DNA from: a virus
Virus record (IMG/VR): IMGVR_UViG_3300031999_004351
Span: 1-20,758 of that record
DNA: 20,758 nt
Direction: 5' to 3' (one strand)
The stretch's first letter is position 1. Every line of letters starts with the position of its first letter. This document shows positions 1 through 20,223 of this stretch, in pieces. Position numbers and translations under genes: made by a program. The notes beneath the pieces are model-generated. The model was not told the origin of the DNA, ran no database searches, and worked only from the letters and a program-made list of their open reading frames with translations.

Positions 1-234
1 CCCATCGAGTACGTCCAGCTCTCCAGCTTGAAGCCCGGCGCGCGTGAGTACGTCCTCCGGCATGAGCGCAGCCACGTCACCGTGGTGGATCGGCGTGGCC
101 GGGAAGTTCCCTTGGTAGCAAGCGACGGCGTGGTCATCCCACTCGACAGCCAACCGCACGTCACCTCCAGCCATTTTGTACCCGAGCGACGAGCCGCCAC
201 AGCCGGCGAATAAGCTGACTACCGTGAAGCTCAC
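1..234 (-). CDS. DNA cytosine-5 methyltransferase, N-terminal part (runs off window)
   Basis: This is the first 78 codons of a C5 cytosine methyltransferase. The 3' part lies beyond position 1. It starts with GTG at 234, and that codon overlaps the TGA stop of the upstream ParB-like gene (GTGA), so the two are probably translationally coupled. The N-terminus reads VSLFAGCGGSSLGYKMAGG at about residues 6-24. This is the glycine-rich SAM-binding motif I of the family (usual form LFaGiGG...G). It is followed by the motif II-like acidic stretch AVEWDDHAVACYQGNFP at about residues 29-45. The frame stays open to base 1 and ends LDVLDG, just before the place where the catalytic PCQ loop (motif IV) is expected. 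The family transfers a methyl group from SAM to C5 of cytosine in a short target sequence. In phages it is used against host restriction. The target cannot be read from this fragment. Confidence 0.88.
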   Translation of the reverse strand, partial: MSFTVVSLFAGCGGSSLGYKMAGGDVRLAVEWDDHAVACYQGNFPATPIHHGDVAALMPEDVLTRAGLQAGELDVLDG

Positions 235-806
235 TTCTTCGGCCACTGGTGATGGCAGGCCGGGCACTCCAACATCGGCACGTCCGCCGCGATGTCCTCG
301 TCGTACTCCGGCGGCTCAGCAGGCGGCGGCGGATGCAGCATGGCTTGCGCCGTGATCAAGTGCTCGACTTCCGCGGACGAAAAGCCCGTCCCGAGCAGAG
401 CAGTCGGGTCCATGCGTGCTGCGTCGAGCATGGCGATCAAGACATCGTTGTCCCAGCCACCGATCTCCACGAGCCGGTTATCAGCCAGCAAGTACGCCTC
501 GGCCTCGGCTTCACTGCCGAAGGCGACGCCGCGGATCACCGGCACCATCCACTCGCCGTCAGCCCCCACCGTCACGCGACCGGGCGGTGGCTTGCCTTCG
601 GCCTTCCGCTTCTGAAGCGTCTCCAGCCGGCCGTGGCCAGCGACGAGCTGCCCCGTGCGCTCGTCCACAAGGAGCGGCTGGACGAAGCCGAAGCGATCAA
701 CGCTGGCCCCCAAAGCATCGTGGTCATGCAACTTGGGATTGCGCGGCCAACGCGCTACCGACCCCAGCGGGACATATTCAATCCTGATTTCCCCGTTCAT
801 CGGCAT
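231..806 (-). CDS. ParB-like N-terminal domain protein with C-terminal zinc-ribbon tail
   Basis: This 191-residue protein has a ParB/Srx-type domain. VPLGSVARWPRNPKLHD at about residues 12-28 is the usual entry strand, and LVAGHGRLETL at about residues 53-63 is the conserved G-H-x-R box that in ParB relatives binds CTP or another nucleotide. NRLVEIGGWDNDVL and LLGTGFSSAEVEHLI follow. The C-terminus CPACHHQWPKK resembles one knuckle of a zinc ribbon. The start ATG at 806 lies one base beyond the TGA of the SbcC-like gene, with GGTAGGG just upstream. The gene runs directly into the cytosine methyltransferase by a GTGA overlap. ParB-like domains next to DNA methyltransferases are common in phages, where they do not partition chromosomes. 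A role in methylation or DNA processing is inferred from the neighbour. The GFSS(A/E)E(V/I) helix recurs in the partial ParB-like gene at the other end of the window. Confidence 0.82.
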   Translation of the reverse strand: MPMNGEIRIEYVPLGSVARWPRNPKLHDHDALGASVDRFGFVQPLLVDERTGQLVAGHGRLETLQKRKAEGKPPPGRVTVGADGEWMVPVIRGVAFGSEAEAEAYLLADNRLVEIGGWDNDVLIAMLDAARMDPTALLGTGFSSAEVEHLITAQAMLHPPPPAEPPEYDEDIAADVPMLECPACHHQWPKK

Positions 807-2432
807 TCACCCTACCACAAAGCAGCCGGCCTCAACGCGCACGCGCATCGCCGGCTGGAGAGCCCACGCGAGCTGATCGCTGTGGGAGATCACGACCACG
901 CAGCGGTCAGCCGCAAGGTCACGCAGCGCCTCGGCCGCTGCCACCTGCCCGTCGACATCGAGCGCGTCGGCTACCTCGTCGAAGAACATCGTGCCAGCGT
1001 GGACACCGTGCGCCGCGCCAGCCACGTCGGCCAGCGCGAGCATGAGCGCGAGGTCGATGCGCCGCCGCTCGCCTGCGCTCGCACCCTTGTACCCGCGCCC
1101 GCCACCAGCACCGATCACGTCCAGGCTGAGAGAGTCGGCCAAGCCGCCGGTCTTCTTCTCGGTATACGGGTTCAGCTTGAGCCGCAGCCCTGGTGCCGCC
1201 ACGCGCGACAGCCAGGCGTTCGCCGCGGCCTCCAGCCCTGACAGTGCGCCGGCCAAGACGTGCGCGCGCACGCCCTTCAGGCCGAGCACCCGCTCGCATG
1301 CCAGCAGCACCATGACCTCGCCGGATGCCTGCTCAGCCTTCGCCACCGCGTCCACCACGTCGGCCGCCAGCTTCTCAACCTCGGCCGCAGCGCGCGCGAG
1401 CTGGTCGGCAGCCTGCGACACCTGCCGCATCGTGGCCGCCGCGATGGCTGCGGCTTCTTCCTGCACGCGCATCTTCGCGCGGAGCGCGTCATGCTCCTCA
1501 TCCAGCTCGGACAGCGCCGCCTCGATGTGGGTCATCTCCTCGCGCGCGGCAGCCTTGACCGACTGCGCTTGCTCGACCCACTCACTGACCTCGGCGCGCA
1601 GCTTCGCGCGCTTGGCCTCGGGCACCTTCTGCCCGCATGATGGGCACTCGGCACCTTCACCCAGCTTGGCCAGCCGCGCCTGCGCATTGCGCGCGTTGGC
1701 CTCCTGCTCGCCGCCGGCCCGGTCAAGCTGCCGGCGCTTGTCGATCAGAGCACTCGACTCGCGCTGCGCAGCATCGAGCATCCGGCGCAGGCCCGCCGTC
1801 TTCTCTGCGTCCACCTTCACCGTCGGGCGCACAGCGTTGAACACCTCGCGTGCATCAGCCGCACGCTTCTCGGCTTCCTGGTGCCGCGCCTGAAGTACCT
1901 CGGCCTGCCGACGTGCGGCCTCCTGCTTGGTCGTCGCGCCACGCAGGTCAGCGCGACAAGCATCGAGCGCGCCGTCAAAGCGGTCGAGCCCGAGCACTGT
2001 CTCCAGCAGGCGTTTGCGTTCGGCATCCGTGGCCAGCGTGAAGTGCGCCGCGTCCGCCGAGCTGAACACGCACGCTCGCCGCCACACGTCGAACGATCCA
2101 ACCGTCCGCTCCAGTGCCGCTTGTGCCTTGGTCGCGTTCTCGTACTCCGGCCCGCCCTCCCACGACAGGACCGTCTTGGCGTTCTTCCGCGCACGCTCGA
2201 CCAGCAGACCAGGGGCCAAGGTCAGGCGCACAAGGCACAGCTCGTCGCCGTGCGTTGGGTCGGCACCGCGCAGCGTCTTGCCCCACAGCGCCCAAGCCAC
2301 GCCCTCGACGGTCGACGACTTGCCAGCACCGTTCGCTCCGGTGATCAGCACCACGCCGCGCTCGGGCAAGTTGAGCCGCGCCGTTGCTTGGAAGCTGGTG
2401 AAGCCGGCGAGCTGGATGGACTGGACGTTCAT
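807..2432 (-). CDS. SbcC/Rad50-like (phage gp46-type) recombination ATPase
   Basis: This 541-residue protein is the ATPase partner of the SbcD-like nuclease two genes upstream. It shows the full SMC-type set: Walker A GANGAGKSS at residues 32-40, two charged coiled-coil stretches on either side of a CPSC zinc hook at 263-266, the ABC signature GASAGERRR from 450, Walker B MFFDE ending at 486, and the H-loop SHSD at 516-519. The length matches T4 gp46 (about 560) rather than bacterial SbcC (about 1000), so the coiled coil is short. In the gp46/47 family the complex resects double-strand ends for recombination-dependent replication and helps degrade host DNA. The ATG at 2432 overlaps the stop of the adenine methyltransferase (ATGA). 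Confidence in the family is high. The exact nuclease polarity cannot be read from sequence. Confidence 0.92.
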   Translation of the reverse strand: MNVQSIQLAGFTSFQATARLNLPERGVVLITGANGAGKSSTVEGVAWALWGKTLRGADPTHGDELCLVRLTLAPGLLVERARKNAKTVLSWEGGPEYENATKAQAALERTVGSFDVWRRACVFSSADAAHFTLATDAERKRLLETVLGLDRFDGALDACRADLRGATTKQEAARRQAEVLQARHQEAEKRAADAREVFNAVRPTVKVDAEKTAGLRRMLDAAQRESSALIDKRRQLDRAGGEQEANARNAQARLAKLGEGAECPSCGQKVPEAKRAKLRAEVSEWVEQAQSVKAAAREEMTHIEAALSELDEEHDALRAKMRVQEEAAAIAAATMRQVSQAADQLARAAAEVEKLAADVVDAVAKAEQASGEVMVLLACERVLGLKGVRAHVLAGALSGLEAAANAWLSRVAAPGLRLKLNPYTEKKTGGLADSLSLDVIGAGGGRGYKGASAGERRRIDLALMLALADVAGAAHGVHAGTMFFDEVADALDVDGQVAAAEALRDLAADRCVVVISHSDQLAWALQPAMRVRVEAGCFVVG

Positions 2433-3043
2433 GGCGTCGGCCCAAGCTCGCGCACCGTGCCTGCGTACTTGCGCTCCTCTGGCGTGGTCGACGCGAGCAC
2501 CTGAATCCTCCCGACCTTTCTGCGTTCAGGAGGAAAGTAGAACCAGGCGTACTCGGTAGCGTCGGTCCCACCGCCCGTGAAGCTCGGCCGGTTGGGCAGC
2601 ACGAAGATGTCCGGCGTGTCCTCACGGAAGGCCAACGAGCGCGCCTGACTCGCGATGAAGTTGATCCGCAAGAGCAGGAACGTGTGAGCGGCGATGGCGC
2701 GGCACTGCTTATAGAACTCGAACGCCAGCGAGTACGGCGGGTTGGTGATGGCCACGTTGAAGTCGTGCAGGCCGGTCGGCCCAAGGAAGTCCTCGGGACA
2801 GAACAGGTGCGTGACCAGCGGCGCGAGCGCCTGCGTACACTCGGCCCGCTTCTCGACGGCGGTCCACTCCACGTCACCGCGCATGGTGTGCGCGATGATC
2901 GAGCCGTTGCCTGCCGCCGGTTCGATCCACCGCCCGCCCGGCAGCTCGCCGCCGACCGCCTCCAGCAGCCGACGCACGCACCAGGGCGGGGTCATGTACG
3001 CGTCGTCGGGCAGACGCACATCACTGCGGTTGGTCGCGCTCAC
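2429..3043 (-). CDS. N6-adenine-type DNA methyltransferase
   Basis: This 204-residue SAM-dependent methyltransferase has motif I EPAAGNGS at residues 41-48 and the catalytic motif IV NPPY at 101-104, which marks amino-group (N6-adenine, less often N4-cytosine) DNA methyltransferases. The order I then IV with no large recognition domain between them fits the compact phage Dam-like or DUF-type enzymes. PPW at the N-terminus and RINFIASQAR after motif IV also fit this group. The start is GTG at 3043, overlapping the TGA of the SbcD-like gene. The stop overlaps the SbcC-like start. Its position between the two subunits of one nuclease complex is unusual and may mean that modified DNA is spared from that nuclease, but that is inference. 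The target sequence is unknown. The window holds a second, cytosine-type methyltransferase at its left edge. Confidence 0.88.
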   Translation of the reverse strand: MSATNRSDVRLPDDAYMTPPWCVRRLLEAVGGELPGGRWIEPAAGNGSIIAHTMRGDVEWTAVEKRAECTQALAPLVTHLFCPEDFLGPTGLHDFNVAITNPPYSLAFEFYKQCRAIAAHTFLLLRINFIASQARSLAFREDTPDIFVLPNRPSFTGGGTDATEYAWFYFPPERRKVGRIQVLASTTPEERKYAGTVRELGPTP

Positions 3044-4119
3044 ATGGCCTCCTTGAGATACCCGCGCACGCGCTCCAGCACAGCGTCTCGATGCCCGTCC
3101 ACCATCGGCAACTCCATGGCGTTGACGAACCGAGTCACCGCCTCATCGAGCGTGGACGCCGTGCCGGCTGCACTCGCCGCCGAGCGTGCCGCGGCTTCTG
3201 ACTCACCCTTGTCGGCCTGGACCTCGCCGTCAGTCACACCGCCGCTCTCCTTCGCCTCGGTGAGCCAGGCCATCGCCGACGGCATGTCATCGGGCGCGGC
3301 GCGCACGCGCGCGAACACGGTGCAGCCCGGCGCAACCTTGGCCACCTCGTCACGCGCCACGAAGCGTGGGCCAGGGATCTCCTGCCACGACAAGCCGCGC
3401 TCGCTGTCGTAGATGGCCAGCGTGCCGTAGCCCTCGGGACCGGGGTTGTCGAACCCGGTCGGCGCGAGCGTGCCCACCTGCATGACGTGCTGCCCCTCGC
3501 TGATCTTCCACTCCTTGCGAGCGTGCCAGTTGCCGGCCACCACCACGTCGTAGTCGGTCGCCGCCCTGGCCAGCTCCATGAGCGGGATGGCATCGAGCGC
3601 GCCGAACAGCCAAGGCGGCGTCTTCTCGTCGATGACCCCCAAGTGGATACCGAGCACTCGGTGCTTGGAAGGGAACGGCACCGGCGGCACCGCGGCGCGT
3701 AACCACTCGCGCGCGTCACCAGGGCGGAACGGCACGAGCGACAGCAGCACGTCACCCACCCGGTAGGGCATCGGGTTCTCCACCACGGTGATGCCCTCGA
3801 CGGCAAGCGGCCCGAGCGCGTGGTCGCCAAGCGAAGTGCTGGCCTGGTCATGGTTGCCGACGAGCAGAAACACGGGTCCGTTGAAATTCAGGAGCGCATC
3901 GCGCACCGCGGCGATCACCTGTGGCTCCGGTCGCATCGTGTCGAACAGGTCGCCGAGCACGACGAACGCCTCACAGCCCGCCTTGCGCGCGGCATCTGTC
4001 GCAGCCAGCAACGCGTCAAGGATCAGGCGGCAGCGTCGGTTGATCCCCGACTGTGCAGACCCACCCCAACGCGCGTGGTTGGCGCAGTGGACATCGGCCA
4101 CGAAGGCAATCTTGCTCAC
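3040..4119 (-). CDS. SbcD/Mre11-like (phage gp47-type) nuclease
   Basis: This 359-residue calcineurin-like phosphoesterase carries the Mre11/SbcD metal-binding motifs in order: D9-x-H11 (VADVHC), GDLFD at 56-60, GNHD at 88-91, a GIHLG histidine near residue 150, and AGNWHARK near residue 195, where the family usually has GH-x-H. HVMQVGTLAPTGFDNPG follows, which is the conserved product and metal-site segment. The length is close to T4 gp47 (339). The last 100 residues, rich in Ala, Glu and Ser, are probably the helical part that binds the coiled-coil base of the SbcC partner. The start is GTG at 4119, overlapping the thyX stop by four bases. It forms an operon with the ATPase gene, interrupted only by a methyltransferase. 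Mn-dependent end-processing nuclease activity is the family role. Confidence 0.91.
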   Translation of the reverse strand: MSKIAFVADVHCANHARWGGSAQSGINRRCRLILDALLAATDAARKAGCEAFVVLGDLFDTMRPEPQVIAAVRDALLNFNGPVFLLVGNHDQASTSLGDHALGPLAVEGITVVENPMPYRVGDVLLSLVPFRPGDAREWLRAAVPPVPFPSKHRVLGIHLGVIDEKTPPWLFGALDAIPLMELARAATDYDVVVAGNWHARKEWKISEGQHVMQVGTLAPTGFDNPGPEGYGTLAIYDSERGLSWQEIPGPRFVARDEVAKVAPGCTVFARVRAAPDDMPSAMAWLTEAKESGGVTDGEVQADKGESEAAARSAASAAGTASTLDEAVTRFVNAMELPMVDGHRDAVLERVRGYLKEAM

Positions 4120-5063
4120 TTGAGCAGCTTCGCGATCTTGGCGACGAACTCCTCGCCCTCACGCTTGGTCGGCCAGGTGTCTTCGTGCTTCCACGCAGCC
4201 GGGTTCCCGACGATCGACTTCAGCATCCTCGACAGGACCTCCATCTCGACCGCCGAGAACGTCACCGCGTTCAGCCGGAAGTCCTCGAAGGCTTCCCACG
4301 CGAGCGGGCAACGCGCCTTGACGAAGGTCGCCATCGCCTCGGCGAACACCCGGATCTCGTACTGTGCGTGCCGGTCCATCCGCAGCGAGAGGAAGTGCAG
4401 CAGGTTGTGGAGATCGATCTTCCAGTACCAGCGCGTGTAGGCCGAGAGCGGCAGGTTGATGCGCGCCAGCTCCTTGGACATGCCGTTGTCGAGGCGCGCC
4501 TTGTACATGGCGAACGCGCCGGCTGCCTCGCGTTGAAAGACCCGCTGATGCATGTCCCCCTCGTCCATCACGCCCGACCGGCCCTGCTTGTTGTCGCCCG
4601 ACTGGTACTGAATCTGCTCCTGCTGCGGCACGTAGAACAGCTCGGGCAGCGCCGAGTACCGGGCGCTCACCTCGTTCACGCTAGCCGTCCTGTGTCTGAT
4701 CCACTGGCGCGCGACGAAGATGGGCATCTGGCAGTGGAACTTAAACTCGACCATTTCGAACGGAGTGGTGTGCCGGTTGCGGTAGAGGTACCGGATGAGC
4801 GCCCGGTCCTTCGCTTCATCCGGCTCCTGCCGGTCACGCTGGTAGCTCACGCGCGCAGCTTGCAGGATCGCCTGGTCGTCGCCCATGCAGTCGACCAGCT
4901 CGACGAAGCCGTGGTCGAGGCACTTGATGGTCCCATCCGGTTGGGTGTCCATCGGCACGGTTGGCCGGTCGTGGTTGGCCTCCTTGTAGAGATTTTCGAT
5001 GCAAGCGGGGCAGCCGTCCACTGGCTCCAAGGTCGCGCGTCGCTCGTGGCTATGCTCGCTCAT
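4116..5063 (-). CDS. thyX: Flavin-dependent thymidylate synthase
   Basis: This 315-residue ThyX makes dTMP from dUMP with methylene-tetrahydrofolate and FADH2. The diagnostic ThyX box RHRTASVNEVSARYS lies at residues 123-137 (RHR-x7-S). VDCMGDDQAILQAARVSY at about 57-74 and HNLLHFLSLRMDRHAQYEIR near 240-260 are the other conserved family segments. The ATG at 5063 overlaps the TGA of the upstream small membrane-protein gene (ATGA), which fixes the start. The frame is open much further upstream, but that part is the opposite register of other genes. The N-terminus carries about 50 extra residues with CPAC at 18-21, not usual in ThyX, possibly a metal-binding add-on. In a phage this gene supplies dTMP for genome replication and pairs logically with the uracil glycosylase domain of the polymerase. 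Confidence 0.95.
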   Translation of the reverse strand: MSEHSHERRATLEPVDGCPACIENLYKEANHDRPTVPMDTQPDGTIKCLDHGFVELVDCMGDDQAILQAARVSYQRDRQEPDEAKDRALIRYLYRNRHTTPFEMVEFKFHCQMPIFVARQWIRHRTASVNEVSARYSALPELFYVPQQEQIQYQSGDNKQGRSGVMDEGDMHQRVFQREAAGAFAMYKARLDNGMSKELARINLPLSAYTRWYWKIDLHNLLHFLSLRMDRHAQYEIRVFAEAMATFVKARCPLAWEAFEDFRLNAVTFSAVEMEVLSRMLKSIVGNPAAWKHEDTWPTKREGEEFVAKIAKLLK

Positions 5064-5392
5064 GCCCGTCTCCCTGTGACGATGCGTAGGCGCACGCCGT
5101 TCGCCGTGCGGACCTCGCGCGCGGGTGCGATGCGCGTGGCCTTGCGGTTGTAGATTTCTCGGTTGCGCGGTGGCAGCTTGAACGCGCACGGCTGCTCCTT
5201 CCCGTGCTCGGCCAGCTCGTGCATGGCGCGCCCGGCCGGGCCAAGGAAGGATGCGATGCAGGTCGGGTGCTCGCAGTAGTACCGCTCGTGCGGCACCAGC
5301 CAACGCGGCAGCGGGCGCACGATGTAGTAGCCCGCCGTGCAGACCACCAGCGTCACGGCTACCAGCCCGACCTTGACCAGCACCAGCGTCAT
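5060..5392 (-). CDS. Small membrane-anchored C2H2 zinc-finger-like protein
   Basis: This 110-residue protein is of unknown function. Residues 2-24 form one hydrophobic segment (start [17 protein letters not shown]), a single transmembrane helix or signal anchor. A classic zinc-finger spacing follows: C40-x4-C45-x12-H58-x4-H63, with aromatic and Leu residues between (ASFLG). The last 40 residues are very basic ([14 protein letters not shown]) and may bind nucleic acid or phospholipid. The start ATG at 5392 overlaps the recA stop, and the stop overlaps the thyX start, both by four bases, so it is a true operon member. I do not recognise a family. The Cys/His spacing could be chance in so short a protein, but the residues between them also fit the fold. 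Confidence 0.75.
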
Positions 5393-7275
5393 GCAGCAGC
5401 CGTAGGCTTCTTGCGCACGCGCTCGCGCACAGCCGCCTCCAACTTGGCGCGCAGCTCCGGGTTGCCGGCCAGCACGGCACCAACCGCCTCACGCCCCTGC
5501 GCCAGCTTCTCCCCGGCGAACGAGTACCACGACCCGGCCTTGTCGACCACCTCCAGCGCCTCGGCCACGACCAGCAGGTCCAGGTCCCGGTCGATGCCCT
5601 TGCCAAAGGTTATGTCGAACTCGGCCTCACGAAACGGCGGGGCCAGCTTGTTCTTGACCACCTTGGCCCGCGTGTGGACGCCGGTCGTAACCTTGTCCTC
5701 ACCGACCTTGCCGATGCGGCGCACGTCGATGCGGACGCTGGCGTAGAACTTGAGCGCGTTGCCGCCGCTTGTCGTCTCCGGGCTGCCGTAGAGCACGCCG
5801 ATCTTCATGCGGATCTGGTTGATGAAGATGACCAGCGCGTTGGACTTGAACGTCACGCCGGTCAGCTTGCGCATGGCCTGCGACATCAGCCGAGCCTGAA
5901 GCCCCATGTGCGCGTCGCCCATGTCGCCGTCGATCTCGGCCTTGGGCACAAGCGCCGCCACCGAGTCGACCACGACCACGCCCGCCCCGGCTTCGATCAG
6001 CCGCTCCACCATGTCGAGCCCCTGCTCGCCGTTGTCGGGTTGCGACAACAGAAGGTCGTCGGTGACCACGCCGAGCGCCTTGGCGTAGCCCACGTCGAGC
6101 GCATGCTCAGCATCGACGAAGCCGCAGACCAACCCGCGCTTCTGCGCCTCGGCCATCGCATGCAGGGCCAGCGTGGTCTTGCCGCTGTTGTGGACCACGA
6201 ACCCGTCAGCCACATAGTTATTGAAGGGTGACTCCATCCGCAGGTCAAAGGTGCGCCGGCTGCCGACCGGCACGACCGAAGCCACTACGTCGGGCACCGC
6301 CGCGAACCGCAGGTTGTTGTGTCGCTCCAGCGCGTGCAGTCGGCCGTGCTCCTCCGGCGTGATGACCATGAGATTACTAAGCATGTCGTTGGTGTGGTCC
6401 TCGTCCTTGTGATGGACGTGCTGCTCGCGCTCCAAGAACCGCAACCCTTCCAGCTCACAGGCGTTGAGCCGCCGAACGTACTCGTCCAGTGACAGCCGGT
6501 TCATCTCGGCCTCGACCACCGCCCGCGAGCGCGCAAGCCGGTAGTACGTGTACTCATACCCGCGCCCCTTCGAGCGCCCGGCGTTCGGCCGGACGACCTT
6601 CACACCCGCGACCGGATGCGCCGCGACGTACAGATAGACACGCTCACGTTCCGGCTCGGTGAGCTGGTCAACTTCGGCCTTCCGGTAAGGCGTGTTGTTG
6701 TGAACCATCACGCGCTGCCCCGGCTCCAACGTCGCCAACTCCACGTAGGCTTCACCCGTGAAGAACTTATGCTCAGCGGTAGCGACCACGCGCTGCCCGC
6801 CCAGCGTGACCAGCTCGAAGCATGGCTTCTCCCCCGTTGCCACCACGTCCACGATGGGGTTCTGAAACACGCGACCGTCCTCGTTGATCGAGGCTGCGAA
6901 GAATCGCGCTCCCACCGTCGCCGGACGCAGGTACTTGCCACGCCCGTCACCACTCGCGTGCCGCCCGTGGAACCGCTCCCACAGACGCTCGATGGTCCCA
7001 CCCTTGTGGTTGGCACGGTGCCCGTCCGGCATCCGCACCTCGTAGGACACGAACGTCCCAGCGTCCAGGCAGGACTCAGGACCGTACACCTCCACGATGC
7101 GCCCGAGCGGGAAGCCGCCGACACCGAGCGCATGGTCGAGCGCCATTGACCCCGTGCTCACCACGTCCACCGGCTGTATCTCGGTATCGCCTAGCCGCTG
7201 CAACGTCGCAGCGAGATCCTTGCCGAGCCCCTTGCGTACTACGTCAAGCACGCGCGCTACGTCATCACGAGCCAT
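5389..7275 (-). CDS. recA: RecA recombinase precursor interrupted by an intein
   Basis: This 628-residue precursor would give a 333-residue RecA after removal of the intein at residues 69-363. The start is ATG at 7275, giving [16 protein letters not shown] Shine-Dalgarno lies at 7285-7281, five bases upstream. The longer open frame to 7347 has no such site. N-extein: [20 protein letters not shown], then [10 protein letters not shown]-extein: [15 protein letters not shown], the Walker B region [26 protein letters not shown], and [14 protein letters not shown]. This is bacterial-type RecA, not T4 UvsX. The family forms ATP-dependent filaments on single-stranded DNA and drives strand exchange. 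The intein splits the P-loop GPES/SGKTT, so the unspliced protein should be unable to bind ATP. It lies downstream of the single-strand binding protein gene in the same transcription unit. The stop overlaps the next gene (ATGA). Confidence 0.95.
6187..7071 (-). mobile_element. RecA intein with HNH homing endonuclease
   Basis: This is a 295-residue in-frame intein. It begins at Cys ([17 protein letters not shown], block A) directly after GPES and ends FVVHN before the +1 Ser of SGKTT. Block B is ATAEH, giving the T-x-x-H signature. Block F/G is [22 protein letters not shown], split here only by the spacing NN-Y. All splicing residues look intact: Cys1, the block B Thr and His, the penultimate His, the terminal Asn, and Ser +1. 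The middle holds an HNH (His-Me finger) endonuclease with [17 protein letters not shown] near intein residues 218-234 and a closing EEHGRLH. The gene segment looks lower in GC than the exteins. A site inside the P-loop is highly conserved in every RecA, which suits homing between phages or between host and phage. Confidence 0.95.
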
Positions 7276-7380
7276 CGTGTCCTCCGGTGCGACCGCGAAA
7301 GAAAAGCGCCCCGTATTCCCGCCAGCCGGGACCACACTGGTTACCACTCGTCACCGCAATGGAGGCGGCAACGCGCCAGG
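7276..7380 (-). promoter_or_regulatory. recA leader between SSB stop and recA start
   Basis: This 105-base stretch lies between the TAG of the single-strand binding protein gene and the recA ATG. The clear element is the GGAGG ribosome binding site at 7285-7281. Read on the minus strand, CCCGGCTGGCGGG upstream can form a short hairpin (CCCG/CGGG), but no run of T follows, so a terminator is not supported. I see no convincing -35/-10 pair. The recA frame stays open through this leader, but composition and the ribosome binding site argue that it is untranslated. Confidence 0.5.
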
Positions 7381-8704: not shown

Positions 8705-11700
8705 TTACGTTTTCACTTCTTCGAGCGCGCCCCAGGACTGCCCGACCTTGGCATCCGCCACAAGCGGCACCCCGTTGGGGATCTTCCACCGGGTCATCAT
8801 GCCAGGCACCTCTGACAGTACGGTCGCCACGAAGTCGTTGCGGACCTCCATGACGATGGAGTCGTAGACGGTGAGCCCGACGCGCACCGGCAGCTTGTGC
8901 CGCTTCACCCAGCGCACCACGTCAGTCAGGCTGGCCAGGGTCAGCTCAGCCGCCCCTCCTTGCACTGGACTATTCATCGCGGCCCGCTCGGCGTGCCCAC
9001 GCCGGCCGTCATCCTGATCAGCCACGCCGTGCAGGTAGCGACGCCGCCCGAGCTGGTCGAACAGCGGCACCCACACGAAGCCGTGCTTGCGCGCGTGCGT
9101 GATCTGCCCCTTGAGCCAGGCGTTCAGCGTGGAGAACTCCCCGAGGATGGCATCGATCAGCGCCTGCGCGATGGCCACCTGCTCGTCGGTGGGGTTCTGC
9201 GTCTTGAAGATGTCGCACGCCAGCGAGCGCGCGTGCTTGCCGTAGGCCACGGCGAAGTTCACCGTCTGCCCGCACACAACAGGCACGCCTCCATCACGGA
9301 CCAGGACATAGGTGCTCGGCACCGACAGACACGCCACCTCACCGTCGTAGTCCTCGACCTCACACTTCAGGTGGCCGCGCCCGTTAGAGCCTGTCGAACC
9401 GCTCTTGTCGCGAACAGTCAGCCGATGCGTCGTACCCTTACCCGCCATCGGAACAAGCCGCGTCTTGCGCCCTGTGACTGCGGCAACTGCCTGGAGTACA
9501 TCCGCGTTCTGCTGCTCGATGGAAAAGTACGTGTAAGACCGATCAAGTGCGCTTGCATCCCAATGCTGCGCCTCCTCCAAAATCACTTCGCGTCGGGTCA
9601 CGTTGAGCTGTACCCACCAATGCGGAAACTTCTTTTCGTCGAGCAAGTCGAGCACGTCTTCCGACAGACCAGGCGATAGCGTAAAGCAGTGGGTGCCGTT
9701 ACTCCACACACGCTCGGTGTACTCGCAACCCTTGAGCAGAACGCGCATGCGCTGAATCTTCCGTAACTTGGTGAAGCCAAGGCGCACGCGCCGCGTCGGT
9801 GAAATCGTGCCGTCTGCTTGCACCGCAACGGCCAACCTGTAGAGGTAATTCTCCTCCACGCCGCCGTCGAAATCAGCACCCTGCCCAACCCCTGCGTTCT
9901 CCCAGGAACCGTAATCGGGCAGCTTCTCCGGTATGCACACGAACGGCGTGCCGTCATCCTTGAACGCCAGCATCCGGTGGTCCGGCGTCACGCGAAGATC
10001 CATACCCTCATTCTTCAGGTGTACCAACTTGCCTGACGGATGCTTCTTCGTGAACACCTCCAACGGTTTGACCCACTCTAACGAAACGTCGCCGCGCTTA
10101 CGCGGAGTCGCCTGCGCGACTTCTTCCCCATCCGACAAGTCGACGATCCGCTTCCAACCTACCCTGGTCAGCACCTCCGTGTCAGGATGGAAGCACTTGG
10201 CCGCGCTGCGCTCCTTGCCCTTCTTGGGCACGTCCTCGGGCTTCATCCGCCACACGGTCGGTGCGACGAGCTGCGCGGTGCGGTAGTGGAAATCCACGCC
10301 CGACCTGAAGATGTCGATCATCTTCTTGTCGCCCGACTGCGACGCCATCACGCGCAGCTCGATCTGCGACTGGTCGAACTCGACCAGCGTCCAGCCCGCC
10401 TCGGCCGCGAAGCAGTTGCGCGCCATCACGCCCTCCTCGTCCTCGGCGCGCGGGATGTTCATGAGGTTCGGCTTCTCGCATGACGGCCGACCCGTCTCCG
10501 TGCCGTGCGGCTTGATGGACGGGTGGAAGCGATCATCAGACCGAATCCACTGCACGAGCCCGGCCTTACCCAGCTTGAACGGCTTGCCGACCGCGGCCTC
10601 ACCGCCGTCGGCGTAGGTGCCGCGCAGCTTCTCGTACTTGCGCCACACCAGCATGTCCTCGATGACCGGATGCAATCCGCGCATCGACTCCAGCGCATCT
10701 GCGTCGGTCGAGTCCTTGCCGGTCTTCGTGGCGTGCTGCGACGGCAGACCGAGCCGCTTGAACAGCAGCTCGGCCACCTGATCGCGTGAGCCGGGGTGGA
10801 TGTTGTACGGCTGGAACCGCGCGAGTACGGCGCGCTGCTTGGTGTCGCACCAGCGCGCCAGCGTTTCCGCAGCCGACCGGCTGGCCCCGATGCCCCACTG
10901 CTCCATGCAGGCGAACGTCGGGATGATGTCCTTCACGATGGTCTGCCACACGCGCGTGAGGTTCGGCTCGCCGGCCAGCCGCGCCTCCAGCAGCTCGGCC
11001 AGCAGCGCCTCGCTCATCGTGTCGCGTGCGTTGTACCGCAGCAACGGGACGCGCGGCACGGTCGCGAACGCCCACGAGCGGGTCGGCCACTCGTCGCGGA
11101 TGCCGCGCGCCACAGGCGGGTCGAGCGGTGGCGGCCCGCCGAACAGCGTGCCCTGCCCCGACAGCAGCTCCTTGGCTTGCGCCCTGGCCTGCTCAGCACC
11201 CGACTGGATCAGCTCGTCGGCTTCCTCCTTGTGCCCGCCCATCCCGACCAGCTCGGTGACGACCTCCAGCCGCGTGTCCGAACCGGAGTCGAGCAGCGCG
11301 CGCACGAGCCCGGTGTCGAACTCGATCCGCACGCTCAGCGGGTCCACCCCGAGCGCACACGCCATCGCGCTCACGTCGAACTTGACGTGCTGCCCGGCGA
11401 GCGGGAGCGTCGTCACCCAGGCGCGCAGCTCCTCGCGCATGGCGGGATCTTCGACGGCTGCGCCGTCGAACACGTAGACGTGCTCAGGCGCTTCGACCGA
11501 GGCGAACGCCACGCACAGTAGCGTGAACTCTGGCTCCCACAGAAGCCCGGCCGTCTCCACGTCGAACAGGACGTAGCGCGCGGCATCCAGCGAAGCGAGC
11601 GCGCGGCGCGCCTCGTCGACCGTCGACAGCACCGTGGCGAAGGCGTGCTGGTGCCGCGGCCGAGGGATAGGCGACGTGAGCGCCCAGTGAAGGTCAGCCT

Positions 11701-12280
11701 CGAACGCCGCCTTGATGAAACGATTGCGCGACGTGGCTGCCGGGTTCGACAGCAGGTAGACCGGCGTCGGCGTGTCGCCCATCAGCCAGCCGTAGCCGCG
11801 CCGCACGGACATCATCGGTGGCGCGCGCCCGAGCAGCGAGTAGGCCGCGATGCTGCCGAGCGCCACCACGCGCTCGGGCTGCACTTCGAGAAGCGTCTGC
11901 GCCATGAAGCCGCGGCAGGCGTCGGTGTACTTGAGCAGCTTCACCCGGTCCTTGTCGCTAGCCATCACGCCGTGGCAGCGCAGCCCATTGTCGAACGCCA
12001 CTGGCCCGGCCCACAGCTTGCTCACGAGCCGGCGCAGGTAGCCGCCGGCCGTGCCGATCATCGGCCGGCCCGCCAGATCCTCGTCACGGCCCGGCATCTC
12101 GCCCACGAGCAGCAGCCCACCAGGGTCGCCCTCGGGCGGCACGCAGACCGTGCGGATACCCTTCTGCCCCGACAACGGGCAGCGCCGACACGAGTGGTCA
12201 AGGCCAAGCGGCTTGACGCGCTCGACCGCCGCAAGCGGCGTGTCGGGGTAAAGGGCTAGGTGCTCAATGGCCAAAGGCAC
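8705..12280 (-). CDS. Uracil-DNA glycosylase / family A DNA polymerase fusion, interrupted by an intein
   Basis: This is a 1191-residue precursor; the spliced protein would be 881. Residues 1-200 are a family 4/5-like uracil-DNA glycosylase with GEMPGRDEDLAG at 60-71, four Cys (31, 34, 102, 122) placed as for a 4Fe-4S cluster, and SNPAATSRN at 178-186. A 3'-5' exonuclease follows: Exo I FDVET near 239-243, Exo II GQHVKFD, and Exo III YNARDT. Polymerase motif A is FDQSQIELR near 635-643. The O-helix is RSAAK/TVNFAVAYG, split by the intein at residues 696-1005. Motif C is YDS at 1139-1141, where most family members have HDE. The start is GTG at 12280, six bases after the previous stop, with only a weak GGGA upstream. 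It is the replicative polymerase of this phage. The glycosylase domain probably checks for uracil, which fits with thyX nearby. Confidence 0.93.
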   Translation of the reverse strand: MPLAIEHLALYPDTPLAAVERVKPLGLDHSCRRCPLSGQKGIRTVCVPPEGDPGGLLLVGEMPGRDEDLAGRPMIGTAGGYLRRLVSKLWAGPVAFDNGLRCHGVMASDKDRVKLLKYTDACRGFMAQTLLEVQPERVVALGSIAAYSLLGRAPPMMSVRRGYGWLMGDTPTPVYLLSNPAATSRNRFIKAAFEADLHWALTSPIPRPRHQHAFATVLSTVDEARRALASLDAARYVLFDVETAGLLWEPEFTLLCVAFASVEAPEHVYVFDGAAVEDPAMREELRAWVTTLPLAGQHVKFDVSAMACALGVDPLSVRIEFDTGLVRALLDSGSDTRLEVVTELVGMGGHKEEADELIQSGAEQARAQAKELLSGQGTLFGGPPPLDPPVARGIRDEWPTRSWAFATVPRVPLLRYNARDTMSEALLAELLEARLAGEPNLTRVWQTIVKDIIPTFACMEQWGIGASRSAAETLARWCDTKQRAVLARFQPYNIHPGSRDQVAELLFKRLGLPSQHATKTGKDSTDADALESMRGLHPVIEDMLVWRKYEKLRGTYADGGEAAVGKPFKLGKAGLVQWIRSDDRFHPSIKPHGTETGRPSCEKPNLMNIPRAEDEEGVMARNCFAAEAGWTLVEFDQSQIELRVMASQSGDKKMIDIFRSGVDFHYRTAQLVAPTVWRMKPEDVPKKGKERSAAKCFHPDTEVLTRVGWKRIVDLSDGEEVAQATPRKRGDVSLEWVKPLEVFTKKHPSGKLVHLKNEGMDLRVTPDHRMLAFKDDGTPFVCIPEKLPDYGSWENAGVGQGADFDGGVEENYLYRLAVAVQADGTISPTRRVRLGFTKLRKIQRMRVLLKGCEYTERVWSNGTHCFTLSPGLSEDVLDLLDEKKFPHWWVQLNVTRREVILEEAQHWDASALDRSYTYFSIEQQNADVLQAVAAVTGRKTRLVPMAGKGTTHRLTVRDKSGSTGSNGRGHLKCEVEDYDGEVACLSVPSTYVLVRDGGVPVVCGQTVNFAVAYGKHARSLACDIFKTQNPTDEQVAIAQALIDAILGEFSTLNAWLKGQITHARKHGFVWVPLFDQLGRRRYLHGVADQDDGRRGHAERAAMNSPVQGGAAELTLASLTDVVRWVKRHKLPVRVGLTVYDSIVMEVRNDFVATVLSEVPGMMTRWKIPNGVPLVADAKVGQSWGALEEVKT
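9266..10195 (-). mobile_element. DNA polymerase intein with LAGLIDADG-like endonuclease and C-terminal Gln
   Basis: This is a 310-residue in-frame intein between RSAAK and TVNF of the polymerase O-helix. Block A is CFHPDTEVLTRVGWKRIVDL. Block B is RVTPDHRML with its T-x-x-H. The middle has two degenerate dodecapeptide-like segments, YRLAVAVQADGTI near intein residues 119-131 and VILEEAQHWDAS near 204-215, each followed by the usual basic and strand segments, so a two-motif LAGLIDADG domain is likely. Block F/G reads VACLSVPSTYVLVRDGG then VPVVCGQ, followed by Thr +1. The final residue is Gln (CAG at 9268-9266), not Asn, and the penultimate residue is Gly, not His. Splicing with C-terminal Gln is known for a few inteins but is often slow. 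The acidic residue of the first motif is kept and the second has D-A, so activity of the nuclease is uncertain. Confidence 0.93.
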
Positions 12281-17574: not shown

Positions 17575-19554
17575 CTATTGCCCGATTGCCGACCCGTTAG
17601 CACCTAAAATCGTCACCTGCCCGGTCGCCGCCGACTCGACCACGACCTCATGCCCTTCCTTCAGGAAGGCACGCTGGCGCGCTTTCGCGTGCTTTTCCAA
17701 CCACTTATTACCCCTGTCGAGGATGTCGTAGACCTCGAACTCAGCCTTTTTCCCGCCGTCGGTTCTCATGCCGCGGCCGATGCGTTGGAGCGAGGCGATG
17801 GTCGACTTGCCCCCGGCTGCGACGATCACCGAGGCCAGCGACGGAATGTCCACGCCCTGCTGGAACACCACCGAGGCAATCAGCGCGTCCAGCTCGCCGC
17901 GCTCCAGGCGCGCCGTTGCCGCGCGCCGCTCGTCAGTGTCGTCGGCACCGAACACGAACTCCGTGCGGACGCCGGCCTTGTTGAGCGCGACCGCAAGCAG
18001 TCGCCCGTGGTCGACCTCCTTGACGAACACCAGCGCCGGCTTCGCGGCGCGCCGCGTGGCCTCGACGACCAGCCGGTTGCGCGGCACGGAGTTGACGACC
18101 AGATCGCGGTACGCATCGTTCCACGTCGGCGTGAAACCGGACGCCTGCATGCACGGCAGCATGCGGATGCGCGGGCGCGCGATCACACCACGCTCGATCA
18201 ACACGTCGGGCTTGAGCCGGAAGATCACCGGCCCGGTCGCCGCCACCGCGAGCAGGCTGCGCTTGTCACCGCGCGCAAGCGGGGTGCCGGACATGCCGAT
18301 GCGGAAGTAGGCCGACGACGCCTTCATGGCCACGCGCCAGAAGGAGTCGGCCGGCAGCACATGGCAATTCGACACACCGAGCCCTTCAGCGAAGTAGGTG
18401 TGCTCCCCCTCTACTTCGAGGTTGTAGACAAGACCGTCTGGACACACTCCTCCAAACGTTCCGTCACCACCCGATTCCAGAACCTCAACACTGTCCACCC
18501 GATTCCACGAAGTCGCCCGTCCCGCCGCGCGTCCTGCGCCTTGCGCTTCCCGTAGTGGCTCGGACCATCCACACGGCGCGTCGTCTCGACCAGCACCGGT
18601 ACTTCGCACTGTCCGCATGGAAACGGCTTCCTCATGAGACAGGCAGAGCACGTTCACACCGCCTGTCAATTCTCCTGCGGGCACCCATCCAGAGGTCGTC
18701 CAGAATCGGTGGTTCGGTGTGCAGGTGATCGCGCGGCGGCCACCGTCGAGAATGATGCGAACCAAAGCTGACGGCCGGCGGACCCACAGCCGCGACACGC
18801 GGCGCATCGACCGGATCTGTGTGACGGGATCGAAAGATGGCACGCTGTCACCGACGCAGATCTCCTCGATCCGCACGCCGCCGACTCTCGTCCCAGCGGG
18901 GAAGCACTCGTCGATGATCAGCCCGAGCGCCCCGCCGACCAGCTTCGTGGCGCGCGCGACCACGCCCGACTCCAGCGAGGCAAGCGCCCGCGCAACAGTC
19001 TGGAACGTGGCCACCGTGAACCGCTCCTCGGACCACTCGCCGTCGCCCACGCGCCCAGCCTTCCGGCCGGTGCGCTTCTCGTAGCGCGCGGCGGTCTGCT
19101 CCAGCAGGTCGACGTTCGGCACCAGGAACAGCCAGCGCGTCGGCATCAGCAGCGACAGCGCGATGGCGATCTCCGTCTTACCGCCGGCCGTCGGAATCCA
19201 CAGGATGCCGTGCCCGGCAGAAGCCGCGCGCTTCACCGCGTCGAGCTGGTAGTCGTGCAGCCACGATAGGTCAGCGGTCGGGTCTTCCTGGCAGGGTCGA
19301 GCGCGCCGGTCGAGCAGCTCGATGGTGATGCCGCACTCGGCCGCACCCTTCTTCACGATGGGCAGGAGTCCGCTCGGGAACGCGTCGGTGAGCTGGTTGT
19401 AGAGCCGGACGCGCCCGTCACCCTGCGCCCGCCGCCGGCCGTAGGCGAACTTCGCCCGCTCATCGTCGAAGGCCAGGTACTCCGAGAGCCAGGTCTTCTC
19501 AGCCGGCTCGGCCTTCGTGACGCGCGTGTGCAGGTTCGTTCGCTCAAGCCACAT
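17575..19554 (-). CDS. SF2 DNA helicase (UvsW/RadD-like) precursor interrupted by a mini-intein
   Basis: This is a 659-residue precursor; the spliced protein would be 479. Motifs in order: Q-like LHDYQLDAV near 99-107, motif I PTAGGKTE at 121-128, motif Ia LVPNVDLLEQT, motif II LIIDE/CH split after residue 216 by the intein (217-396), motif III MSGTPLARGD, motif V VVFQQGVDIPS, and motif VI LQRIGRGMR. The start is ATG at 19554, with GGAG four bases upstream and an 11-base overlap with the previous gene. The longer open frame to 19836 is antisense noise. The T4 relative UvsW unwinds branched DNA and R-loops and moves origin-dependent to recombination-dependent replication. A similar role fits the gp46/47 and RecA genes downstream. 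Insertion between the Glu and Cys of DECH should keep the precursor inactive. Confidence 0.92.
   Translation of the reverse strand: MWLERTNLHTRVTKAEPAEKTWLSEYLAFDDERAKFAYGRRRAQGDGRVRLYNQLTDAFPSGLLPIVKKGAAECGITIELLDRRARPCQEDPTADLSWLHDYQLDAVKRAASAGHGILWIPTAGGKTEIAIALSLLMPTRWLFLVPNVDLLEQTAARYEKRTGRKAGRVGDGEWSEERFTVATFQTVARALASLESGVVARATKLVGGALGLIIDECFPAGTRVGGVRIEEICVGDSVPSFDPVTQIRSMRRVSRLWVRRPSALVRIILDGGRRAITCTPNHRFWTTSGWVPAGELTGGVNVLCLSHEEAVSMRTVRSTGAGRDDAPCGWSEPLREAQGAGRAAGRATSWNRVDSVEVLESGGDGTFGGVCPDGLVYNLEVEGEHTYFAEGLGVSNCHVLPADSFWRVAMKASSAYFRIGMSGTPLARGDKRSLLAVAATGPVIFRLKPDVLIERGVIARPRIRMLPCMQASGFTPTWNDAYRDLVVNSVPRNRLVVEATRRAAKPALVFVKEVDHGRLLAVALNKAGVRTEFVFGADDTDERRAATARLERGELDALIASVVFQQGVDIPSLASVIVAAGGKSTIASLQRIGRGMRTDGGKKAEFEVYDILDRGNKWLEKHAKARQRAFLKEGHEVVVESAATGQVTILGANGSAIGQ
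18367..18906 (-). mobile_element. Helicase mini-intein (180 residues), no in-frame endonuclease
   Basis: It begins with Cys (CFPAGTRVGGVRIEEICVGD, block A) immediately after the helicase IIDE. Block B is AITCTPNHRFW, with T-x-x-H. Block F is VYNLEVEGEHTYFAEG. Block G is LGVSN before the +1 Cys of CHVLPAD. The penultimate residue is Ser, as in DnaE-type SN/C junctions. The splicing core looks complete, and no HNH or LAGLIDADG motif is present in frame. Residues about 90-155 are low in GC at the third codon position compared with neighbouring genes, because a second ORF in another frame occupies the same DNA. The site lies between Glu and Cys of the DExH box. Confidence 0.92.
18411..18635 (-). 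CDS. Nested out-of-frame DUF559/Vsr-like endonuclease ORF inside the helicase intein
   Basis: This is a 74-residue ORF from ATG (18635) to TAG (18411), in a different minus-strand frame from the intein that surrounds it. RRVDGPSHYGKRKAQDARRD, then GRLRGIGWTVLRFWNRVVTE, follows the DUF559/Vsr pattern of small PD-(D/E)XK-fold endonucleases: (E/D)-x-DG-x-x-H, D-x-x-R-(D)-x-x-L, G-W-x-V-L-R-F-W-N, then a hydrophobic helix (LEECVQTVL). An N-terminal CGQC pair at residues 7-10 may bind zinc. By hand count, 55 of 74 codons end in G or C in this frame against about 38 of 75 in the overlapping intein frame. This favours real coding in the nested frame. No Shine-Dalgarno lies directly upstream; AGGAG is about 35 bases away. 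It may be the homing endonuclease that mobilises this intein. Expression is unproven. Confidence 0.62.
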   Translation of the reverse strand: MRKPFPCGQCEVPVLVETTRRVDGPSHYGKRKAQDARRDGRLRGIGWTVLRFWNRVVTERLEECVQTVLSTTSK

Positions 19555-19969
19555 AGATCTCCGTTCCCGGCAGCGACGGCACGCATCGGCGGCCGGACAG
19601 GAACGCCCGGTACTCGTCGAACTTGTGCCGGTCATAGCCGCCCCACTTTTCCCAATACGCGCGGCGGGCGCGCCGCCACCGCTTGCGCCGCCGTTCTGCC
19701 GTCGAGCTGCGGCGGTGGAACGCGAGCCCTTCACCCTTGCTCCAGTGGCGCTCGAAGTCCTGCCACGAGCCGCAGCGCAGACACTCGGCTGGACCGAGCT
19801 GCTCCATGCCCACGCCGTTGTCAGCGAACTCGGCATCGAGCGGGCCGTCGCAGAACTGACAGCAGCCGGCTGGCCCGTAGAACCGGCTGGTGCGCCTCGG
19901 TGCGATCCTGCCCGACAGCTCTGCGACCGTGGCGCACGCCGCGGCCAGCTTGCGACCGTGCCGTGACAC
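19544..19969 (-). CDS. Small zinc-binding basic protein
   Basis: This 141-residue protein has two Cys pairs, CCQFC (C37, C40) and CLRC (C63, C66), with a 22-residue acidic loop between them, forming one likely zinc ribbon. A very basic segment, AERRRKRWRRARRAYWEKW, follows at about 91-109 and could bind nucleic acid. The start GTG at 19969 comes two bases after the stop of the helix-turn-helix gene. The open frame runs further upstream to 20059, but that part overlaps the upstream gene and lacks support. The gene overlaps the helicase start by 11 bases, and its end contains the helicase ribosome binding site. I do not recognise the family. It resembles phage zinc-finger proteins that lost or never had a nuclease domain. 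Confidence 0.68.
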   Translation of the reverse strand: MSRHGRKLAAACATVAELSGRIAPRRTSRFYGPAGCCQFCDGPLDAEFADNGVGMEQLGPAECLRCGSWQDFERHWSKGEGLAFHRRSSTAERRRKRWRRARRAYWEKWGGYDRHKFDEYRAFLSGRRCVPSLPGTEIYVA

Positions 19970-19971
19970 CG

Positions 19972-20223
19972 CTACTTCGCCGCCGATGCCACCAGCCCGA
20001 ACAGCTTGGACGCAGCCGGCCCGAGGTACACCGCGACCGACTTGGCCTCGACATACCACGACCGCCCGACCTGAAACCCGTTCAGCTCCTTGCGCTCGAT
20101 CAGGTCGTAGATCGTGGTCACGTCGCGACCGATCAGCCGCGCGACCTCCGGTGCGGGCAGGTAGCCCTTCGCCCGCATGATGTCCGACTGCTTGACCTTC
20201 ACCGGCTTGATCTTCAGGGTCAT
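19972..20223 (-). CDS. Excisionase/MerR-type helix-turn-helix DNA-binding protein
   Basis: In this 83-residue protein, residues 20-65 follow the HTH_17 (excisionase, winged helix) layout: GYLPAPEVARLIGRDVTTIY, then DLIERKELNGFQVGRSWYV. These are the recognition helix followed by the wing with R-x-W-Y-V. The C-terminal tail is short and hydrophobic. The ATG at 20223 has AGGAG about eight bases upstream, so the start is firm. Members act as recombination directionality factors or small transcriptional regulators. With no integrase in the window, the choice is open. At the head of a replication operon a regulatory role is as likely as excision. Confidence 0.85.
   Translation of the reverse strand: MTLKIKPVKVKQSDIMRAKGYLPAPEVARLIGRDVTTIYDLIERKELNGFQVGRSWYVEAKSVAVYLGPAASKLFGLVASAAK

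Follow-up and report, generated by a model that had tools for sequence, protein, structure and literature searches.

Intein homing endonucleases are usually described either as in-frame domains or as separate genes lying between split halves. Split inteins with free-standing Vsr-like endonuclease genes between their halves were reportedly described by Dassa et al. in 2009, and a 2025 preprint by Gosselin, Arsenault, and Gogarten may describe an intein whose splicing and endonuclease functions are encoded in overlapping frames. In the ShiLan domain and the Pacc40 insertions, phage methylases carry an HNH endonuclease out of frame, and these insertions are explicitly described as having no splicing domain (PMC11855218; Arsenault, Gosselin, Gogarten 2025). 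The same paper cites the preprint (10.1101/2025.01.02.630785; Gosselin, Arsenault, Gogarten 2025), which concerns non-canonical actinobacteriophage inteins, for overlapping reading frames in actinobacteriophages. Besides these two sources, our literature search found no description of an overlapping-frame arrangement such as the one analyzed here.

We analyzed a stretch of viral DNA of 20,758 nucleotides (IMG/VR record IMGVR_UViG_3300031999_004351, positions 1 to 20,758; hereafter, the window), in which an intein within a helicase gene overlaps a second reading frame. We consider it highly probable that the window carries a decayed copy from a phage intein family that is widespread and combines two overlapping genes. 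Under this account, the helicase frame would encode the splicing domain plus a middle passenger peptide that needs only to be free of stops, and the +1 frame would encode a separate homing endonuclease (HEN) of ~200 aa that combines a Vsr/DUF559-like nuclease with a zinc finger and a helical DNA-binding region. The nuclease would, in many relatives, have its own ribosome-binding site close to where the intein N-domain ends, and it would end inside or just past block F. The in-frame intein would splice the helicase precursor, the separately translated nuclease would cut helicase alleles that lack the intein, at their Walker B codons, and repair would then copy the entire element in. The window copy would have lost most of its nuclease to a deletion that preserved both frames. 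The account draws on sequence for the two open frames, their constraint, the Shine-Dalgarno enrichment, and an empty-site allele, and on models for the fold; splicing, expression, cleavage, and homing are what we infer for this intein family.

The proposed arrangement can be set against each of the described systems. As in canonical bifunctional inteins, the endonuclease is encoded between the N- and C-terminal splicing regions, at the usual insertion point; here, however, the in-frame passenger has no recognized domain, and the nuclease would be a separate +1-frame protein. The split inteins likewise have a separately translated Vsr-like endonuclease between the intein halves, whereas in the present family the nuclease overlaps, in a different frame, an intein that is continuous. 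With ShiLan and Pacc40 the family shares a homing-type endonuclease in an alternative frame of an insertion that is open in the frame of the host gene. Those insertions, in contrast, encode HNH nucleases and have neither a splicing domain nor a detectable ribosome-binding site; the window nuclease is DUF559/Vsr-like, and it overlaps a recognizable intein splicing domain. We put at about even the chance that these elements form a widespread, undescribed class, namely, contiguous inteins that encode a homing endonuclease at +1 across their splicing domain, with the Shine-Dalgarno sequence in intein codons (often GAG-GTN, Glu-Val) and the end of the catalytic core and the stop codon in the C-terminal splicing region.

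The mini-intein and the nested reading frame of the window

The helicase ORF that hosts the intein (17575..19836, minus strand) encodes an SF2 helicase with ResIII and Helicase_C domain matches. Its true start probably lies near 19557, as judged from the domain match and from an upstream ORF (19544..20059, minus strand) that overlaps the listed helicase ORF at its 5' end in a different frame and is probably the gene upstream of the helicase.

The intein (18367..18906, minus strand) spans 180 aa from Cys1 to Asn180 and splits the Walker B box of the helicase between DE and CH. Profile matches place its N-terminal splicing region, with blocks A and B, at 18646..18906 and its C-terminal splicing region, with blocks F and G, at 18367..18510 (both minus strand). 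The catalytic residues are present (C1, the block B TxxH with T63 and H66, N180, and the +1 Cys) and are invariant or almost so across the intein alignment. Block F reads VYNLEVE, and the residue before the terminal Asn is Ser, not His. The TIGR01443 score (19.6) exceeds its cutoff (15.6); for Pfam Intein_splicing (PF14890), the window intein scores 29.2, below the cutoff of 35.8, and its relatives L007, L010, L034, and L046 score above it. The intein model has a pLDDT of 87, with very low confidence for residues 105-122 between the splicing regions, and shows a HINT fold whose top PDB match is the splicing domain of the Mtu RecA intein (E = 3.8e-8). The initial annotation had described a mini-intein without an in-frame homing endonuclease, and the Pfam search agrees, finding no endonuclease domain in that frame; the candidate explanation that an in-frame endonuclease had been overlooked was accordingly rejected.

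The nested ORF (18411..18635, minus strand) lies in the +1 frame relative to the helicase and intein, encodes 74 aa, and is present as first described, with an ATG start and the motifs DGPSH, DARR, and GWTVLRFWN. From the ORF list, the DUF559 match, and the alignment to relatives, it appears to be an internally deleted remnant of a zinc-finger/Vsr-like homing endonuclease. Its DUF559/Vsr-like signature was recovered by a Pfam search of the 74-mer (DUF559, E = 5.5e-10; 39.5 bits versus a curated cutoff of 20.6), but the match extends only over profile positions 59-106 of 109, i.e., the C-terminal half of the domain, and a complete catalytic nuclease domain is not present. Over the shared DNA, the nested frame has 74.7% G/C-ending codons and the intein frame 50.7%, which reproduces the hand count. 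The reading once drawn from this difference, that the nested frame is the more constrained, stands in part: the values fit past constraint on the nested frame, but the final ~100 nt are constrained by the intein too. Frame comparison, together with the constraint seen in relatives, delimits a stretch (18414..18510, minus strand) that serves two proteins: it encodes the last part of the nuclease core (WTVLRFWN..LEECVQTVLSTTSK) as well as the C-domain of the intein (WNRVDSVEV..VYNLEV).

Full-length nesting in relatives

When the 74-mer was used as a tblastn query, it matched helicase genes of Corynebacterium phage phi673, Pseudomonas phage MR14, and Vibrio phages. In all of these, the helicase CDS that contains the intein is uninterrupted, the match is offset from it by +1, and the nested ORF encodes ~200 aa; further Vibrio phages with the arrangement include CP-T1, K391, and the 1.194.O group. 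Viral contigs were then searched with a profile of the nested protein, which retrieved 234 relatives; the best 80 were kept, and in all 80 the two splicing regions share an open frame, with the HEN at +1. The same holds for a planctomycete MAG contig (L093) and the isolate phages, where the intein is continuous and the HEN lies at +1. The locus set includes near-identical contigs, and 67 HENs differ by >5%. Searching by mini-intein sequence returned mostly inteins with a +1 HEN, and no stop was found between the intein halves among these loci. The N-terminal half of the HEN, which does not overlap the splicing domain, retrieved 54 loci, 52 nested at +1 and 2 free-standing; the Vibrio nuclease alone, as a query for close relatives, gave one locus. 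In the GenBank records examined for the isolate phages, only the helicase is annotated across the nested stretch, and a hidden +1 nuclease would account for the annotation of such inteins as lacking an endonuclease.

Taken together, the overlapping-frame architecture is strongly supported by sequence as real and widespread, with the window copy as a decayed example. The initial annotation had proposed an endonuclease that overlaps an intact splicing domain in another frame, an architecture unlike that of known inteins, and had named two findings that would speak against it, the lack of a profile match and a nested frame broken in relatives; for the architecture, neither was found. The nesting is thus borne out for the family, with the qualification that the window ORF is itself a remnant. 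The nearest published case is an out-of-frame HNH nuclease without an intein.

The two free-standing relatives lie at 2914-3495 of L238 and 2917-3507 of L235. In L238, the HEN is directly upstream of a helicase frame without a recognized intein, and this frame appears broken near the Walker B box. An Rfam search of L013, L235, and L238 found no known RNA family (e.g., group I intron).

Across 61 full-length HENs, C11, C14, D135, D148, G149, H152, D161, W173, R177, F178, and N180 are invariant, and C37, C41, and E146 are nearly so, with NPM and GGNG motifs in between. PHROGs and NCBIfam searches with the whole nested protein gave weak matches only and no close family. The model of the full-length HEN (pLDDT 91, pTM 0.64) has I-Bth0305I (3r3p) as its top Foldseek match (TMt 0.67, probability 1.00, E = 1.8e-3), with NGO0050 (3hrl) as a close second relevant fold match; 3hrl is also matched by sequence search (1.6e-12). 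I-Bth0305I is an EDxHD homing endonuclease described from group I introns (PMC3943268). Although it is the closest fold to the full-length nested nuclease, sequence similarity is weak (16% identity), the HEN has an N-terminal zinc finger, and much of the domain is missing in the window copy. The model and the conserved residues point to a zinc-finger/Vsr-like homing endonuclease of ~200 aa, which would presumably cleave DNA.

Constraint, expression, and decay

Since the only close relative of the window (L002) is 99.89% identical to it, the evidence on constraint comes from the other relatives. When synonymous HEN codons were resampled at 89 loci, 887 stops were expected in the intein frame and none was observed; the third frame contained 1023 stops versus 741 expected. 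Most loci are significant singly, and for the window the sequence is too short (P0 = 0.35). Substitutions were counted in twelve related pairs, some of which share members. In the N-domain, they fall mainly at the third intein position (119/80/235 at positions 1/2/3). The HEN-only middle changes mostly at the first intein position, which is the third position of the nested codons (513/214/161). In the overlap at the end, the counts are 41/11/27, with both frames limiting change, and substitution density, from the pair counts, drops from ~13.6% to ~5.5% of sites. In the middle, then, substitutions follow the nested codons: the endonuclease is constrained and the intein frame is only kept open, and at the end both are constrained.

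We found that Shine-Dalgarno tetramers precede the nested start at 48% of 65 loci, compared with 16% of control +1-frame ATGs, and that the duplex energy is stronger than in controls (p = 2e-9). At many loci, the signal is GAGGT, the Glu-Val codon pair that closes the intein N-domain, 5-8 nt ahead of the nested ATG, and about half of the nested starts are without a clear Shine-Dalgarno sequence. The enrichment argues for internal initiation over frameshifting, and the sequence data favor translation of the nested nuclease from its own start. The best surviving alternative, that programmed +1 frameshifting yields the nuclease fused to the intein N-domain, would account for the constant +1 offset, and at some loci the nested frame indeed contains no stop for tens of codons ahead of its start. 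We nevertheless regard it as improbable, given the Shine-Dalgarno enrichment at the nested start and the presence of a stop a few codons upstream at several loci, including phi673 and the window.

Relative to the full-length HEN, the window 74-mer joins residues ~1-20 to residue 148 onward, so that ~125 codons are missing with both frames preserved; at its N-terminal end, this alignment is short and weak, consisting of CGQC plus a few residues. The profile alignment places the approximate junction, from endonuclease residue ~20 to ~148, at 18573..18581 (minus strand). The missing parts include the invariant Asp135, the zinc-site residues Cys37 and Cys41, the NPM and GGNG motifs, and the DNA-binding motifs, and Glu146 is replaced by Arg. 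No Shine-Dalgarno sequence was found ahead of the window nested start. Other truncations occur in the relatives L112, L111, L004/L114, and L120, and each keeps the end that is co-encoded with the intein, so that the intein partly maintains the surviving tail. It does not maintain the VDGPSHYGKRKAQDARRDG stretch upstream of this tail, and the retention of that stretch suggests that the deletion is fairly recent.

That the 74-residue ORF is instead a functional minimal endonuclease or regulator seems to us more doubtful still than frameshifting. It does keep the ATG, the CxxC start, D148, H152, D161, and the LRFxN core, with no stop; against this stand the loss of D135, of the zinc ligands, and of all DNA-binding motifs, the Arg at position 146, the lack of a Shine-Dalgarno sequence, and the preservation of the same co-encoded end by different truncations at other loci. 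The notion of a working endonuclease in the window thus gives way to that of an internal-deletion remnant: judging from its sequence, the nuclease copy is most likely inactive, and the element has probably retained splicing and lost homing.

Two further explanations have a negligible probability. Spurious ORFs are abundant in high-GC DNA, but a coincidental DUF559 similarity arising from high GC or from intein coding conflicts with the full-length relatives at the identical offset in AT-rich phages, with the codon-position substitution pattern, and with the endonuclease-free mini-inteins L155 and L159, whose +1 frame has several stops and no recognizable endonuclease, so that the nested ORF is not a by-product of intein coding; the relatives and the stop, substitution, and Shine-Dalgarno tests rule out a chance or GC artifact. 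A split intein, with its halves as separate genes around a free-standing endonuclease, is contradicted by the lack of stops between the halves at the 89 loci, by the helicase CDS annotated as continuous in isolate phages, and by a frame that is continuous at all loci having both halves, so the splicing halves are not on separate polypeptides.

Mobility, implications, and neighboring genes

The helicase of phage phi674 is 98.3% identical to that of phi673 and has no intein, i.e., its site is empty. After DE, phi674 reads GTG CAT, and phi673 reads the intein followed by TGT CAT; the +1 codon and the bases directly downstream differ, and ~160 nt upstream are identical. This is the pattern expected if the element carried in its own +1 Cys, plus some flanking conversion, and from this one empty-site pair we infer homing of the element. 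Both phages are recorded on C. glutamicum ATCC13032, a laboratory host, which makes homing directly testable. In L080, L082, L083, L086, L087, and L093, the intein follows DEAH (or DEAHHA) rather than DE, so more than one site in the Walker B box is used. HEN distances track the extein (rho 0.51) over the intein (0.23), which is not a clean transfer signal.

If the proposed arrangement is correct, the nuclease is freed from the spliced protein, and the element stands close to a split intein whose endonuclease is free-standing; the overlapping arrangement would be a plausible intermediate toward the origin of split inteins. One DNA stretch could encode both halves of a mobile element simultaneously. 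Because the nuclease would be a separate overlapping gene in an intact intein, splicing and mobility would share few residues and could decay independently. The family also adds a large natural set of overlapping genes in which constraint is measurable in both frames.

L002 (positions 1-4507; contig IMGVR_UViG_3300031772_002551), which matches the window over 4.5 kb, is a second assembly of a nearly identical virus, with an identical truncation of the nested ORF. Elsewhere in the window, a UvsX/RecA-like recombinase gene (5389..7347, minus strand) contains a second intein, apparently of the canonical type, with an in-frame HNH endonuclease. A ThyX-type thymidylate synthase ORF (4116..5606, minus strand) has ~235 additional residues ahead of its Thy1 domain. 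A family A DNA polymerase (8705..12280, minus strand) carries an N-terminal uracil-DNA-glycosylase-like domain, and its insertion at residues ~695-1006 resembles PHROG entries known to contain inteins.
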